From Bacteroidota bacterium (GTDB lineage: Bacteria; Bacteroidota; Bacteroidia; UKL13-3), in assembly GCA_027482225.1 (NCBI GenBank), contig JAIXWD010000016.1:330050-394049 (forward strand): a stretch of DNA of 64,000 nucleotides, written 5' to 3'. The notes under the pieces are model-generated. The model was given only the letters and a program-made list of their open reading frames with translations. It was not told the DNA's origin and did no database searches. The position numbers and the translations under genes are program-made. Below are positions 9,250 through 15,420 of this stretch, piece after piece (position 1 is the first letter of the stretch; each line of letters starts with the position of its first letter).

Positions 9250-10035
9250 TTATTCCCAAAGGTTTGTGTAAGTAGGGTTCAACAAAGGTAGTATTTCATA
9301 CCTACTTACGGATAATTCTATTGTACCTTGAGCGTATGAAGCCACTTCGTAAGGGTTAAAAAGCCAAGTAGCACCATCATCGGTTAGTACAAAATTGTCG
9401 CTTAAATGAAATTTATTATCCTTAAACCAATATCCAGCATCATCTAAATTTGCTTTAATGGATAATTCATTGGCTGCTCTAAAATCTTTTTCAGCAATAC
9501 TTAATAACTTTTTAAGGTTACTATCAGAGAATAGTTTTTGAAGCGTGAGTATTTCGTTTTTGGGTTTATAAAAATTACTGTAAATGTTAGAATACATACC
9601 ATGTGCACCACCTGTGTAATCGTCCATTTCAACACTTAAACTAACTACATTATTGCTTTGAAAAGGCACACTTATATTGGTTTGACTATACCAACTTTGT
9701 TCACTCTCTTTGAACTCTTTTTTAAATTTTTCATACTCGGCCATAAAAGTATATTGTGTTTGTTCCAAGTTGGTGTTTTTATTTACGCCAAATATGGTTA
9801 GTACAATAGAATTTAAACTATCAGCAATAGGTTGAGGTGATTTGAATAAAGGATAAGTGTATGATATATGTGCACAATCGGGCGAATCGATGTTGCAGTT
9901 TTGATAAACACGTTGCAAAGATTGCATTTCATAAATTAAAGTGTCTGTATATTGGGTAGATGATCTTTGGCAAGACAAAAATGGGAAATAAATGGAAATG
10001 GCTATTACGATTATTGACAAGTATCCAATTTTCAT
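9250..10035 (-). CDS. DUF3298 (RsiV-like) lipoprotein
   Basis: The 261-residue product begins with a lipoprotein signal whose lipobox FLSC puts the lipidated cysteine near residue 22. The C-terminal half has the DUF3298 pattern: a YTGGAHGMYSN segment, an LQKLFSD segment and an F.L...GA.WLFNPYEVA..A.G segment. In Bacillus RsiV this domain belongs to an anti-sigma factor that senses lysozyme. Here there is no transmembrane anti-sigma part and no sigma factor nearby, so it is probably a stand-alone cell-envelope lipoprotein. Its function is unknown. It is a single gene, divergent from the PhoX-like gene. Confidence 0.75.
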   Translation of the reverse strand: MKIGYLSIIVIAISIYFPFLSCQRSSTQYTDTLIYEMQSLQRVYQNCNIDSPDCAHISYTYPLFKSPQPIADSLNSIVLTIFGVNKNTNLEQTQYTFMAEYEKFKKEFKESEQSWYSQTNISVPFQSNNVVSLSVEMDDYTGGAHGMYSNIYSNFYKPKNEILTLQKLFSDSNLKKLLSIAEKDFRAANELSIKANLDDAGYWFKDNKFHLSDNFVLTDDGATWLFNPYEVASYAQGTIELSVSRYEILPLLNPTYTNLWE

Positions 10036-10199: not shown

Positions 10200-12083
10200 A
10201 TGAAAAAAAAATTACTATCTGCCATATTTCTTGCTTCATCTGTAGCAACAATGGCACAAATTCCTTTTCCTGTAAAAATTGATACTTCATGGAGTGCCAA
10301 AACTATTTGGATGCCGAAGTCACCATTAAAACAACAAGTTATTTTTGTTGGTGGAGTTGATACGGTCCAAACTACCGCAACTTATGGCAATGCAGCTGGT
10401 TCAACAGTGGCCAAGCAGTGGCACGATTTTATCGGATTCACTCCCGAAACTGATCCTGCTAAAATTGCAACAGGTGACCTAGGTTGGGTGATTGTTAACC
10501 ATGAAATGGTAGAGAAGAACGATAAAGTTGGTGATGGAGGAGGTATGACAACCTTTAAATTACGTAGAGTAACTGGAAATGTGATGGAAATTGTTCCTCA
10601 GACATTGACAGATGGTCGCTCTGGTAAGTTTTTTAATGTTGATTTTGTTAACACTGTTGGTGAAACAGGCATGAATTGTGGTGGAATATCTGCGGATAAT
10701 GGTCGTATCTGGACTGCTGAAGAGTGGATGCAAAATAGTAATACGCAGATTGCAGGTGGTGTTCGTGATACATCTGATTTTGTTATAGGAACTACAACTC
10801 CTGCAGGTTTTCCTGGTTTTAATGGCAAAACTTTAAAAAAATACCAGAATTTAAATTGGATGGTAGAAATTGATACTAAAACAGGTAAGGCTATCAGAAA
10901 GCAATACAATTGGGGACGTGCGGGTTATGAAGGAGGTGTTTTAATGAATGATAACAAAACTGTTTATTTGTTTGAAGATGGAACTCCTGGCTTGTTGATT
11001 AAGTTTGTTGCTAATACAGCAGGCGATTTTACCTCTGGCCAATTATTTGCACATAAAGCTGATGCCGCTGATAAGTGGATACCAATTGAGAACAATTTAG
11101 ATACATTAGTGAACTTAAGAACAGTAGCATTTAAGCGTGGTGCAACCATGTATACCCGTTTAGAGTGGGGAGCTGTAAATAAAACTAATGGTAAGATTTA
11201 TATCACTGAAACTGGTAATGATAACCCGGGTTCAGCCTTTAAATCAGGTTTAGGTGCAACTGGAACGATTGCTAATCATTTGATTGTAGCTTACAAGAAT
11301 AGATACCAGATTGTTAATGGTACTTCATTCCCTGGCACTGATGCTGCGGCTAGTGATTCAGTTCGCAATGGTGCTTTTAAAGATTACTATGGTAGAGTTT
11401 TGGAGCTTGATCCAACTACAGGTGTAGTTCGTACTTTTTTCGAAGGCGGTCCTTATCATACTGCATCAGCATCTCAAGGTGTAAATAGTTATCCAAATGT
11501 TCATTTTTCAAATCCTGACGGATTAAATTTCGCTTACATAAAAGGTAAAACTTACATGATTATGCAAGAGGATTTAAATGGTCGTACTTGGAATAGAATG
11601 CCTGCAGAATACCAAGCTGGTGCTCAAACTATTTGTGAGTCTTATTTATTGGATATGGATATTGCTAACCCTACCTACAGCGATTTGATGCGCATTACTG
11701 CTTGCTCACCAGGTGCAGAAATTACTGGAGGTATTGCAATTGATAGTAGAACAATGTTATTCAACGTACAACATCCTGATGGTGCAAATACTTTCCCTTA
11801 CAACAACTCTTTAACATATGCAATCAGTGGTTGGGATGGTATAACAACTGCGGTTGAGGAATACTTCAAATCTAAAAATAATTCATTATTCACTGCTTAT
11901 CCTAATCCGGTTGCAAATGAATTAACACTTAATAAAGTGAGTGATATTGCAATATATGATATGACAGGAAAGCGTGTTAAGGTATATCGTGATGTTCAGG
12001 TAGTTAATGTAACTGACTTAACACCTGGAGCCTACTTAATCATGAATGCAGAAGGTGAAAGAGTTAAAATTATCGTTGAGTAG
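10200..12083 (+). CDS. secreted PhoX-like (DUF839) protein with T9SS sorting domain
   Basis: The 627-residue protein has a signal peptide (1-19, ending TMAQ), a DUF839/PhoX-type beta-propeller body and a C-terminal T9SS type A sorting domain (about 557-627, beginning TAYPNPVANE). PhoX enzymes are Ca/Fe-dependent phosphatases; body segments such as MNCGGISADNGRIWTAEEW, GYEGGVLM, VYLFEDGTPG and ITETGNDNPGS fit the family. I cannot confirm every metal ligand by eye, so phosphatase activity is an inference. The sorting domain says it crosses the outer membrane and is either released or attached to the surface. It starts a same-strand run with the di-haem peroxidase and the haem/copper protein, although a hairpin at 12115-12150 may cut the transcript. 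Confidence 0.8.
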   Translation: MKKKLLSAIFLASSVATMAQIPFPVKIDTSWSAKTIWMPKSPLKQQVIFVGGVDTVQTTATYGNAAGSTVAKQWHDFIGFTPETDPAKIATGDLGWVIVNHEMVEKNDKVGDGGGMTTFKLRRVTGNVMEIVPQTLTDGRSGKFFNVDFVNTVGETGMNCGGISADNGRIWTAEEWMQNSNTQIAGGVRDTSDFVIGTTTPAGFPGFNGKTLKKYQNLNWMVEIDTKTGKAIRKQYNWGRAGYEGGVLMNDNKTVYLFEDGTPGLLIKFVANTAGDFTSGQLFAHKADAADKWIPIENNLDTLVNLRTVAFKRGATMYTRLEWGAVNKTNGKIYITETGNDNPGSAFKSGLGATGTIANHLIVAYKNRYQIVNGTSFPGTDAAASDSVRNGAFKDYYGRVLELDPTTGVVRTFFEGGPYHTASASQGVNSYPNVHFSNPDGLNFAYIKGKTYMIMQEDLNGRTWNRMPAEYQAGAQTICESYLLDMDIANPTYSDLMRITACSPGAEITGGIAIDSRTMLFNVQHPDGANTFPYNNSLTYAISGWDGITTAVEEYFKSKNNSLFTAYPNPVANELTLNKVSDIAIYDMTGKRVKVYRDVQVVNVTDLTPGAYLIMNAEGERVKIIVE

Positions 12084-12114
12084 TAAATAAAAACATTTAA
12101 ATAATAATGTAGTA

Positions 12115-12150
12115 GCGCCTATGGTTAAATTAGCCATAGGCGTTATTTTA
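12115..12150 (+). terminator. hairpin between the PhoX-like and di-haem peroxidase genes
   Basis: CGCCTATGG and CCATAGGCG form a 9-bp stem with a 9-base loop, followed by GTTATTTTAT. The T run is interrupted, so this may be a partial terminator that lowers readthrough into the next gene only 14 bases on. Confidence 0.6.
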
Positions 12151-12163
12151 TAAATAGATTGTG

Positions 12164-14089
12164 ATGCGTAAATACCCAGTTCATTCCGTTTTGTTTAGTA
12201 TTGTCATTGTGTTAGCATTATTCTCTTTCACACAATCAATCAAATCTGATAAAGAAGTTTTTGATACATATAAATCTAATTTTGAAAAACTAAAAATTGA
12301 AGCAAGTCAATTTTCAAGTCGTGTAAATTCGATTAAACCAACCTCTGACAATAAAAAAAGTATTGTTAATGAATACAATCAACTGAGGGATGCTTTTAAA
12401 GCGATAGAGTTTATTTGGGAGTATACAGACCCTATTTATGTAAAGGATTACATAAATGGTGCTCCATTGCCTAAGTTAGATAAGTCTGCTCCTGGTATAT
12501 TAATTTTACAACCACGAGGTTTGCAAGTTATTGATGAGTTACTTTTCGAGGAAGATTGGAATATTGAAAACATTAGCGAACAAGCAAAGCTGTTGTATAA
12601 GGCCATAAACGACTATAATTTTCCTGCTAAAATTAATGACAGGATAGTTTTTGAAGCTTTAAGAGTAGAACTCATCAGATCTTTCAATCTTGGTTTAACA
12701 GGGTTTGATGTGCCTGCATCTGAAAGAACAATGGCAGATGCAATTGTTATTTTCACACAACTTAATAAAACCATAGAATGTTACAAATCAAGAATTGAAA
12801 ATGTAGATCCCAATTTATATAAGAATATAGCATTTAAGTTTAATCTTGGTTTAAAGCAGCTGAACTCAAATATTTCTTTTGAAGGTTTCGACCGTTTGAA
12901 TTTTTTGAAAGAAGTTGTAAATCCATTGTTTTCAGATTTATTAACAGCTCAGCATTTATTGGGTATTGAAACAATTTACGAAGCCACAACTGGAACTAAG
13001 TTTGCGCTTAATTTTGAGGCAACCAACTTGTTTTCTAATCATATTCTGAATGCAGACTATTATGTTAATTTGCCTCAAAATTTGTCATCATCAAAATTAG
13101 ACAATCTTGGTAAGCTATTGTTTTTTGATCCTATATTATCAGCTTCAAACGAACGTAGCTGTGCTAGTTGCCATAATCCATTAAAAGGTTTTACAGATGG
13201 TGAGTCTAAAAGTTTGGCTTTCGGTATGAAAGGTCGTATTGATAGAAATTCTCCTACATTAATAAACAGTGTTTATAGTGAGCGTTACTTTCACGATTTA
13301 AGGGCTGATGCTTTAGAGGATCAGATGGAACATGTGGTTGTAAGTGAGAAAGAGTTTAATACCAATATTATTGAGGTTGTTTCTAAACTCAATCAAAGTA
13401 AAGAGTATTTAACATTGTTTAAAGATATTTATCAAAATGAATCTTCACCAATAAATAAACATACGATTGCATTCGCAATTACTTCCTATGTTAAATCTCT
13501 TTCCGGTTACAACTCATTGTTTGACAAGTTTGTTAGAGGAGAATCAAATGAATTAAGTACTTCTGCTAAAAGAGGTTTCAATTTATTTATGGGAAAGGCC
13601 GCTTGTGGGACCTGTCATTTTGCTCCAAATTTTAATGGTACTGTTCCCCCACTATACAACGATAGTGAAAGTGAGGTATTAGGCGTACCTGAAAATCCAT
13701 ATAGTAAGACATTAGTTATTGATAATGATGAAGGACGTATTGCTGCCAAATTAAAGGAGGGCGCTCCTTTTTACCGCTATTCATTTAAAACACCTACGCT
13801 GCGTAATGTAGCTATAACTGCTCCTTTTATGCATAATGGTGCATACAAATCACTTCAGGATGTAATGGATTTTTACAATAAAGGTGGAGGGAGTGGAATA
13901 GGTATCAACGTCCCATATCAAACACTACCTACCGATCCCTTAAATTTAAATAAACAGGAAATGAAAGATATCATTTCATTCATGGAATCTTTAACAGATA
14001 CATCAGGTTTAACTAGTGTTCCCATGTCATTGCCCAAGTTCGATAACAGAATTGAATGGAATAATAGAAAAATAGGAGGTATATACTAA
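12164..14089 (+). CDS. imelysin-like domain fused to MauG/CcpA-type di-haem peroxidase
   Basis: The 641-residue exported protein (signal or anchor at about 6-25) has two parts. Residues about 30-290 form an all-helical region whose GAPLPKL and QPRGLQVIDELLFEE segments resemble the imelysin/M75 fold. Residues about 300-641 form a bacterial di-haem cytochrome c peroxidase with haem sites CASCH at 333-337 and CGTCH at 481-485, plus the usual FKTPTLRN and PFMHNG segments. Such enzymes either reduce peroxide or, as in MauG and MbnH, oxidise a partner protein. A GTG three bases earlier is an alternative start. Its stop overlaps the start of the next gene (TAATG), so the two are translationally coupled. 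The imelysin label is my reading of pattern and is less sure than the peroxidase. Confidence 0.85.
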   Translation: MRKYPVHSVLFSIVIVLALFSFTQSIKSDKEVFDTYKSNFEKLKIEASQFSSRVNSIKPTSDNKKSIVNEYNQLRDAFKAIEFIWEYTDPIYVKDYINGAPLPKLDKSAPGILILQPRGLQVIDELLFEEDWNIENISEQAKLLYKAINDYNFPAKINDRIVFEALRVELIRSFNLGLTGFDVPASERTMADAIVIFTQLNKTIECYKSRIENVDPNLYKNIAFKFNLGLKQLNSNISFEGFDRLNFLKEVVNPLFSDLLTAQHLLGIETIYEATTGTKFALNFEATNLFSNHILNADYYVNLPQNLSSSKLDNLGKLLFFDPILSASNERSCASCHNPLKGFTDGESKSLAFGMKGRIDRNSPTLINSVYSERYFHDLRADALEDQMEHVVVSEKEFNTNIIEVVSKLNQSKEYLTLFKDIYQNESSPINKHTIAFAITSYVKSLSGYNSLFDKFVRGESNELSTSAKRGFNLFMGKAACGTCHFAPNFNGTVPPLYNDSESEVLGVPENPYSKTLVIDNDEGRIAAKLKEGAPFYRYSFKTPTLRNVAITAPFMHNGAYKSLQDVMDFYNKGGGSGIGINVPYQTLPTDPLNLNKQEMKDIISFMESLTDTSGLTSVPMSLPKFDNRIEWNNRKIGGIY

Positions 14090-15420
14090 TGAGATTAAAT
14101 TTCGGGATAATTATATTCTTGTTGTTTTATTCGAAAGAAAACCTCACCGCCCAGGATATAACATATTACGGATTAATTCAATCAATAATACATAATAAGT
14201 GTGTTAATTGTCATAAAGTAAATGGATATGCTCCATTCGATTTGTCTGATTACGAAGATGTTAAGCAACGTGCTAGTTTTATAAAACATGTAGTTCAGAA
14301 TCGTATTATGCCGCCATGGAAAGCAAATCATAACTATCTTGATTTCGCAGATAATAAATCGTTAAATGAACATGAAATAGCACTCATTGTGAATTGGGTC
14401 AATGGTGGTTGTGTTAAAGGTAAGGAGGATAAGAGTTTAGTTAAAAGCGAAAGGTTGACACACATTGATAAACCCAATCTGGTTTTAACAATGTTAGATA
14501 CTTTTAATGTTCCAGGTAACAATAAGAATACGTATATCTGCTATAAAATTCCTTTCGAAATAGATCATGATACCTTCGTTAAAGCTATTGAGTTTTTTGC
14601 GGGAAACAAATCTGTTGTTCATCATGCTAGTTACCAAGTTTTAGAGGTGGCTGATGATGCTGATATTTTTAAAGGACCATACTATTTTATGTATGATTCA
14701 GATACACTAAATCGTGTGAAAGATGATCATGATTATAAGTATTTAAATCTAATAGGCAAGGATGGAGAATTACCTGTAGAATTATATCATAATGGTTGGC
14801 TGCCCGGAACATCTCTTCAAAAATATCCTTCGGACATCGGATTTCGACTGCCCAAAAGGGGGGTATTGTTAATTCGTAATTTCCATTATTCACCAACTCC
14901 TATTGCACAAAAAGATTTATCTGGATTTAATATTTATTACAGTGAAAATGTACCGTCAAGAAAGATTGGTTTTGCAGCGTTTAAGCCAAAAAATCCAATA
15001 CCGAATGGTAAGTGGTTTATTGGAGCAGGAGACAGCAATTTCAAATCAGTTATCAATGTTAGATTTCATAATGATGTTTCTCTGCTCAATATTAATCCCC
15101 ATATGCATCGATTAGGTAGGTATTTTAAGTCCTATGCAGTAACTCCTACACAAGATACTATTAAACTGATAGAAATATTAAATTGGGATGCAAATTGGCA
15201 AGAGTTTTATCGATTTAAGCACATGGTTAAAATTCCTGCAGGTTCAATATTGCATGCTGAGGCTGTTTATGATAATTCAATGAACAACCCTGAAAACCCA
15301 AACTATCCGCCTAAGGATATTTTATTTGAGTGGGGGATGAGTGACGACAGTGAAATGATGCGACTTGTGTTATTGTATTTGCCTTATCAAATCGGAGATG
15401 AAAAGATAAGTTTGGAATAG
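14089..15420 (+). CDS. cytochrome c domain fused to a PHM-like copper type II monooxygenase fold
   Basis: The 443-residue exported protein (signal about 1-21) starts with a small cytochrome c-type domain holding CVNCH at 38-42 and the MPPW segment typical of this fusion. The rest matches the copper type II, ascorbate-dependent monooxygenase (PHM/DBM) fold: a His-His pair at 178-179 (VVHHASY), the His-x-His pair at 338 and 340 (NPHMHRLG) and a Met near 423-424 (DSEMMRL). This order equals the CuH pair, CuM pair and CuM methionine of peptidylglycine hydroxylase. It suggests a secreted copper oxygenase wired to a haem, but the substrate is unknown. It is coupled by a 1-base overlap to the di-haem peroxidase. 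Confidence 0.8.
   Translation: MRLNFGIIIFLLFYSKENLTAQDITYYGLIQSIIHNKCVNCHKVNGYAPFDLSDYEDVKQRASFIKHVVQNRIMPPWKANHNYLDFADNKSLNEHEIALIVNWVNGGCVKGKEDKSLVKSERLTHIDKPNLVLTMLDTFNVPGNNKNTYICYKIPFEIDHDTFVKAIEFFAGNKSVVHHASYQVLEVADDADIFKGPYYFMYDSDTLNRVKDDHDYKYLNLIGKDGELPVELYHNGWLPGTSLQKYPSDIGFRLPKRGVLLIRNFHYSPTPIAQKDLSGFNIYYSENVPSRKIGFAAFKPKNPIPNGKWFIGAGDSNFKSVINVRFHNDVSLLNINPHMHRLGRYFKSYAVTPTQDTIKLIEILNWDANWQEFYRFKHMVKIPAGSILHAEAVYDNSMNNPENPNYPPKDILFEWGMSDDSEMMRLVLLYLPYQIGDEKISLE

Follow-up and report, generated by a model that had tools for sequence, protein, structure and literature searches.

Imelysin–MauG fusion proteins adjoin exported PhoX-family phosphatases across Bacteroidota, suggesting an oxidative helper outside the cytoplasm

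We analyzed a 64,000-nucleotide stretch of a 2.72-Mb freshwater Bacteroidota genome (hereafter the window), in which three plus-strand genes, flanked by minus-strand neighbours, are predicted to encode a PhoX-family phosphatase exported through the type IX secretion system (T9SS; gene 1), an imelysin domain joined to a di-haem MauG-type domain (gene 2) and a cytochrome c fused to a domain of the peptidylglycine monooxygenase (PHM) fold (gene 3; Table 1). Relatives of gene 2 stand beside PhoX phosphatases across the phylum, a pairing from which we suggest that a phosphatase leaving the cytoplasm unfolded depends on a dedicated oxidative helper outside it, one that probably loads iron. Because PhoX is the constant partner and the PHM gene an accessory present in only 12 of 78 loci, the client of gene 2 is most likely the phosphatase and not the copper protein. 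Some role of gene 2 in the maturation of the gene 1 product appears probable, and we tentatively read the cluster as a secreted phosphatase encoded with its own extracytoplasmic oxidative maturation machinery. The original prediction for this region had proposed an extracytoplasmic oxidation system, which is still the best reading, but its pairing of the MauG-like enzyme with the copper protein is probably wrong, the constant partner being PhoX.

Phosphatases as partners of imelysin–MauG genes

Searching 395 sampled Bacteroidota genomes with a profile of the N-terminal domain of gene 2 yielded 66 matches, spread over 60 genomes, and we examined 78 imelysin–MauG loci, comprising 60 from this phylum sample together with loci from the family of the window genome. 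A PhoX gene or domain lies near the imelysin–MauG gene in 69 of them, with a lipoprotein PhoX-like gene in 34 and a T9SS PhoX in 31, within four genes and usually next door. PhoX was also found in a frame first hidden by open reading frame (ORF) calling (L102), as tails at contig ends (L076 and L134), and as two PhoX-like domains of a giant T9SS protein (L092). In the lipoprotein clade, PF05787 was matched directly by only 8 of 34 sequences; we assigned the clade to PhoX from these together with its profile matches to unpartnered PhoX, whereas the clade profile matched no PDB chain. In three loci (L087, L110 and L122) a purple acid phosphatase takes the place of PhoX; the two folds are unrelated, and both enzymes use ferric iron. 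A choice-of-anchor I/5'-nucleotidase protein occupies L088, a truncated relative of such a protein L089, and L123 lies at a masked contig end.

Fused and unfused MauG genes differ in their proximity to PhoX. Using Pfam matches only, in 24 genomes, a PhoX gene lay within 4 kb of 22 of 27 fused MauG genes and of 1 of 54 unfused ones (Fisher p 4.6e-14). Relatives of gene 2 adjoin 23 of the 56 sampled PhoX genes; all 23 are divergent members, and no PhoX scoring over about 200 bits has such a neighbour. In the gene 2 tree, sequences group by client class, with 8 changes for five classes compared to a mean of 32.7 after shuffling; near relatives share clients, and the pattern therefore indicates a stable partnership and not independent events.

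Several loci carry further secreted or phosphatase-type neighbours. A leucine-rich-repeat protein of ~300 residues follows the T9SS PhoX in L096, L106, L108, L111, L112, L115 and L138 (Pfam check for L096), and an exonuclease/endonuclease/phosphatase-type protein, recognized by eye and without a Pfam match in L100, follows the PhoX–MauG pair in L100, L113, L131 and L134. Giant T9SS proteins with choice-of-anchor I, phytase-like and 5'-nucleotidase domains (Pfam check for L074), a further secreted phosphatase-type neighbour, lie near the cluster in L074 (807-7745) and L077 (14385-20000).

Export route of partnered phosphatases

Classical PhoX exits the cytoplasm folded, via twin-arginine translocation (Tat). 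Tat-type RR or RK motifs were present in 17 of 20 unpartnered PhoX, compared with a convincing Tat motif in none of 67 partnered PhoX, three of which fit a relaxed pattern only, as KRKLL (p 2e-15). Partnered PhoX are instead Sec lipoproteins or T9SS proteins, and a PhoX exported by either route must fold and acquire its Fe3+/Ca2+ centre outside the cytoplasm. The Tat dependence of PhoX has been demonstrated experimentally in Campylobacter (PMC4148689). Locus L164 (G225:C12, 4871-9705) has, ~1.5-2.4 kb behind a classical Tat PhoX gene, genes for a 309-residue MbnP-like lipoprotein, named by eye, and a 341-residue di-haem protein, which resemble an MbnP/MbnH-type pair and not the imelysin–MauG set.

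The PhoX–MauG pairing itself is already known from Flavobacterium. Lidbury et al. 2022 (PMC8812569) report that phoX and a MauG-like gene form one operon in all Flavobacterium genomes and that a Flavobacterium PhoX without its MauG neighbour is inactive in Pseudomonas putida, and suggest that the enzyme may need a cofactor; deleting it lowers phosphatase activity in its own host (PMC8812569; Lidbury et al. 2020, PMC8115612). An incomplete literature search returned no earlier report that the PhoX partner contains an imelysin domain, that the pairing extends across the phylum, that export divides between Tat and Sec, that purple acid phosphatases can replace PhoX or that a PHM is added.

Alternatively, genes 2 and 3 could be functional neighbours of PhoX, serving peroxide detoxification or electron transfer within a common phosphate-starvation regulon. 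In line with this, phosphate depletion induces both phoX and the MauG-like gene in F. johnsoniae (PMC8115612), peroxidase activity is common in the superfamily, and three copies of gene 2 (L119, L125 and L133) have no recognizable phosphatase neighbour. Regulon sharing alone, however, fails to explain the client-tracking phylogeny, the contrast between fused and unfused MauG genes, and the split in export routes, and we judge this explanation distinctly unlikely.

The imelysin–MauG fusion and its predicted client

Sequence and fold comparisons indicate that gene 2 encodes a putative signal-bearing protein in which an EfeO/imelysin-fold domain is joined to a MauG-type di-haem domain. The frame starts with a GTG at 12161, and the ATG at 12164 is the more likely start. 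The predicted model of residues 26-285 has the double four-helix-bundle fold and matched Algp7 (Z 23.9 over 230 residues), EfeO (23.5) and EfeM, all at Z 23-24. Pfam reported no imelysin match in this region, and its sequence profile found nothing credible in the PDB, where only fold comparison gave matches; owing to the fold match, the imelysin identity proposed originally is right despite the silence of Pfam. The site corresponding to the imelysin GxHxxE motif reads GxQxx(E/D) in the gene 2 family, with Gln in 73 of 78 sequences, so that the canonical motif is absent, in an alignment that is weak at this point (37% probability). Superfamily members without the motif His are known (PMC3143127, PMC9174327). 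An earlier assignment of the motif to GFD (181-183) was wrong, profile comparison placing it at residues 120-126.

The di-haem domain matched CCP_MauG with an E value of 1.6e-43. When the alignment to CcpA/MacA of G. sulfurreducens is extended, Tyr572, two residues past its end, falls at the position of their Met ligand, and the distal Glu398 is invariant among those of the 78 relatives with data. The Tyr ligand rules out a CcpA-type peroxidase, and of the MauG/CcpA-type enzyme first proposed only the MauG part stands. Gene 2 also departs from MauG and MbnH, scoring below the curated cut-offs for MauG (TIGR03791, 175 of 444 bits) and MbnH (TIGR04039, 190 of 363 bits), and the inter-haem Trp (MauG Trp93) is replaced by His378 in the window and kept in only 13 of 78 relatives. 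BthA, which nevertheless reaches the bis-Fe(IV) state, has no Trp there either (PMC6405878).

Gene 1, described before as a T9SS-exported DUF839 protein, is predicted to be a PhoX-family phosphatase with conserved PhoX residues. It scored 81.5 bits against PF05787 (cut-off 24) in a genome-wide profile search and carries the sorting tail expected of T9SS export. Hmmscan with default filters returned no PF05787 match; the conclusion that gene 1 is not a PhoX was dropped, as the genome search and the family profile both match PhoX. Orthologues with 68-96% identity occur in 12 other genomes of the family, and a profile of 12 gene 1 orthologues matched PhoX in the PDB in three colinear segments (E 1e-5). 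In a wider alignment, 20 of 23 sequences matched PF05787 and all 23 had the T9SS tail. Residues N100, E102, C160, E175, E244, E322, D440 and E507 are common to gene 1 and classical, unpartnered PhoX; Cys160 we take to be the iron-ligand Cys of PhoX. A conserved Trp or Tyr target in partnered PhoX was considered and rejected, one apparent Tyr column (369) looking like an alignment artefact.

These features bear on a second alternative, in which gene 2, like MauG or MbnH, oxidizes a PhoX side chain to create a ligand or cofactor that the enzyme requires; in the lineage of the window, the initial oxygen would be introduced by the PHM, just as an unknown hydroxylase acts ahead of MauG in tryptophan tryptophylquinone (TTQ) synthesis. 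Such chemistry would fit the Tyr ligand of MauG type and the distal Glu, both present wherever relatives have data, given that Tyr ligation separates MauG from peroxidases (PMC7567364); it would also fit the coupling of a monooxygenase gene to the MauG gene and the cofactor need proposed in PMC8812569. In the alignments, however, neither a Trp, Met or Cys nor a securely aligned Tyr is both specific to MauG-partnered PhoX and present in the two partnered clades. The clients include an unrelated fold, the purple acid phosphatase, and the inter-haem Trp is mostly lost, a point tempered by BthA. Overall, we consider side-chain modification unlikely.

The cytochrome c–PHM protein and the organization of the cluster

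In line with the cytochrome c–PHM fusion originally predicted, gene 3 is, on its predicted model (mean predicted local distance difference test score 82.6), a c-type haem domain followed by a PHM/dopamine beta-hydroxylase (DBH)-fold domain; all six predicted copper ligands are present. The model matched DBH and PHM at Z 16-20 over 238-277 residues, with the next unrelated chain at 7.7; a sequence-profile search of the PDB gave nothing credible, only fold comparison doing so, and the Cu2_monoox_C profile scored just over its cut-off. Residue offsets to PHM (71 to 109) are consistent with the aligned ranges of the fold match. Alignment of 13 sequences, the check suggested for the PHM-like ligands, revealed invariant haem ligands (C38, C41, H42 and M74) and copper ligands (H178, H179, H266, H338, H340 and M423). 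The MauG-linked PHM proteins form one clade (100/100), which includes a long-branched member from another, distant family (L113) and is separate from paralogues such as a second copy in the window genome. This second cytochrome c–PHM gene (G000:C18, L093 8619-10555) lies beside a CxxC redoxin that may be concerned with copper delivery, and no MauG gene was seen nearby.

In the order set of 64 genomes, close orthologues of genes 1, 2 and 3 occur in 13, 12 and 11, respectively; the three groups of genomes are nested and the genes lie side by side, which answers the question of conserved co-occurrence raised with the original prediction; chance co-occurrence was ruled out (hypergeometric 4e-12 and 2e-11). 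The three adjacent same-strand ORFs and the coupling of genes 2 and 3 were likewise borne out, the stop of gene 2 and the start of gene 3 overlapping by one base (TAATG). Signal-like N-terminal segments, judged by eye, are present in all three proteins. Four loci have a Rieske protein gene between genes 2 and 3. A TonB-type receptor gene and one for a large T9SS protein follow gene 3 in four loci, and a redoxin gene follows it in one.

Given this coupling, gene 2 could instead oxidize the copper protein of gene 3, the latter being the working enzyme; the single clade of MauG-linked PHM proteins would agree with such an arrangement. The rarity of the PHM gene among imelysin–MauG loci, its separation from gene 2 by the Rieske gene in four of the 12 loci that have it, and the retention of the same catalytic residues by gene 2 relatives without PHM make this explanation very improbable.

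The 77 bases between genes 1 and 2 contain a 17-bp hairpin (-23.9 kcal/mol, z -6.5), which was absent from the terminator scan output. Many other PhoX–MauG loci have a hairpin at the same spot, with different stem sequences and in several cases T-runs. Such an element would keep MauG levels low relative to abundant PhoX, as would suit an enzyme that matures this product. Upstream of gene 1, by-eye inspection alone recognized no common Pho-box. A PdaC/DUF3298 protein gene divergent from gene 1 (9250-10035, minus strand) is kept upstream in L075, L078 and L084 among the relatives.

Table 1. Coordinates of the three genes and their predicted features in the window
Feature	Position (nt)	Strand	Remarks
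Gene 1	10200..12083	+	627 residues; Sec signal peptide, PhoX-family (DUF839/PF05787) phosphatase domain and T9SS tail, predicted
Gene 1, Cys160	10677..10679	+	NC-GG motif in common with classical PhoX; conserved in all PhoX clades
Gene 1, T9SS type A sorting tail	11898-12071	+	residues 567-624
Stem-loop between genes 1 and 2	12111..12147	+	17 bp, U-rich 3' side; terminator/attenuator-like
Gene 2, imelysin–MauG fusion	12161..14089	+	642 residues; predicted periplasmic
Gene 2, imelysin/EfeO (M75-like) domain	12236..13015	+	residues 26-285; predicted structure
Gene 2, di-haem MauG/MbnH-like domain	13085..14059	+	residues 309-633; profile and structure matches
Gene 2, first haem motif CASCH	13160..13174	+	78/78 relatives
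Gene 2, second haem motif CGTCH	13604..13618	+	77/77 relatives with data
Gene 2, Tyr572	13874..13876	+	MauG Tyr294 position (Met in CcpA); 75/75 relatives with data
Gene 3	14089..15420	+	443 residues; signal peptide, c-type haem domain and PHM/DBH-fold domain, predicted
Gene 3, haem motif CVNCH	14200..14214	+	distal Met74 in MPPW; invariant in 13 sequences
Gene 3, PHM/DBH-fold copper monooxygenase domain			residues 127-434
Gene 3, H178-H179	14620..14625	+	PHM H107-H108 (CuH)
Gene 3, H266	14884-14886	+	third CuH ligand
Gene 3, H338 and H340	15100..15108	+	PHM H242/H244 (CuM)
Gene 3, Met423	15355-15357	+	CuM ligand

A possible maturation pathway

If gene 2 matures the phosphatase, it would act in the periplasm on the gene 1 product in transit. 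The imelysin domain may bind or present iron, and the di-haem domain may oxidize it to the ferric state with peroxide, as EfeO and EfeB are thought to handle iron. For gene 3, the weakest step of the scheme, we envisage an accessory specific to this lineage, which could provide an oxidant or electrons, or could hydroxylate a client residue. Iron oxidation or loading is a possible chemistry for gene 2, and between it and modification of a specific residue, which are close, we favour the former, because two unrelated client folds share ferric iron, the N-terminal fold is that of iron-handling proteins and the presence of gene 2 follows the export route. Extended to Bacteroidota as a whole, the scheme would describe a dedicated extracytoplasmic maturation of ferric-iron phosphatases in which imelysin–MauG oxidizes iron and inserts it into PhoX or purple acid phosphatase exported unfolded through Sec or T9SS, performing externally the task that the Tat route accomplishes within the cell, and some lineages add the cytochrome-linked PHM, a generalization that we regard as doubtful.

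Several observations weigh against this scheme. The change of GxHxxE to GxQxx(E/D) means that iron binding by the imelysin domain is not assured, and linkage is the sole support for the proposed role of gene 3. Three loci (L171-L173) have a Sec-type PhoX with no adjacent imelysin–MauG gene and no match in their genomes, to which the three gene 2 copies with no recognizable phosphatase neighbour can be added. The authors who observed the inactivity of Flavobacterium PhoX in P. putida point out that it could also be explained in other ways (PMC8812569).

Secreted iron phosphatases control the release of organic phosphorus by bacteria in lakes, soils and seas. If a PhoX exported by Sec or T9SS does need an oxidative helper, phosphatase gene counts would overstate activity wherever no helper is present, the unsuccessful heterologous expression of Bacteroidota PhoX would have an explanation, and the assembly of iron cofactors outside the cytoplasm would become a testable question. 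A large branch of MauG-like enzymes, as well as a bacterial PHM, would also gain a biological role.

Comparison with known systems

The closest precedent is the Flavobacterium pair Fjoh_2478/Fjoh_2477, in which a PhoX-family phosphatase gene is directly followed by a MauG-like gene, as in the window. That phosphatase is a lipoprotein and no PHM–cytochrome gene is present, whereas the window combines a T9SS PhoX with a PHM–cytochrome; the lipoprotein PhoX clade in our sample (34 loci) likewise has the imelysin–MauG fusion as partner. Compared to classical PhoX (PDB 3zwu/4amf), gene 1 belongs to the same family and has its active-site residues in register, but differs in its T9SS rather than Tat export, very low sequence similarity and MauG-like partner.

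Gene 2 resembles MauG of TTQ biosynthesis and the MbnH–MbnP pair in its di-haem fold, Tyr axial position, distal Glu and adjoining dedicated client, and differs from them in the extra imelysin domain, the loss of the inter-haem Trp in most relatives and the phosphatase client. With the EfeUOB and imelysin–EfeB iron systems it has in common an imelysin/EfeO fold combined with a haem peroxidase, and in such systems an imelysin protein rarely occurs without a linked EfeB-like peroxidase, to which it is sometimes fused (Xu et al. 2011, PMC3143127). In gene 2, by contrast, the peroxidase is of the CCP_MauG and not the EfeB/DUF1111 type, HxxE is changed to QxxE/D, and the locus has a phosphatase neighbour and no permease. 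Gene 3, finally, shares the fold and all six copper ligands of PHM and DBH at 17-20% identity, and is distinguished from them by its N-terminal c-type cytochrome domain.

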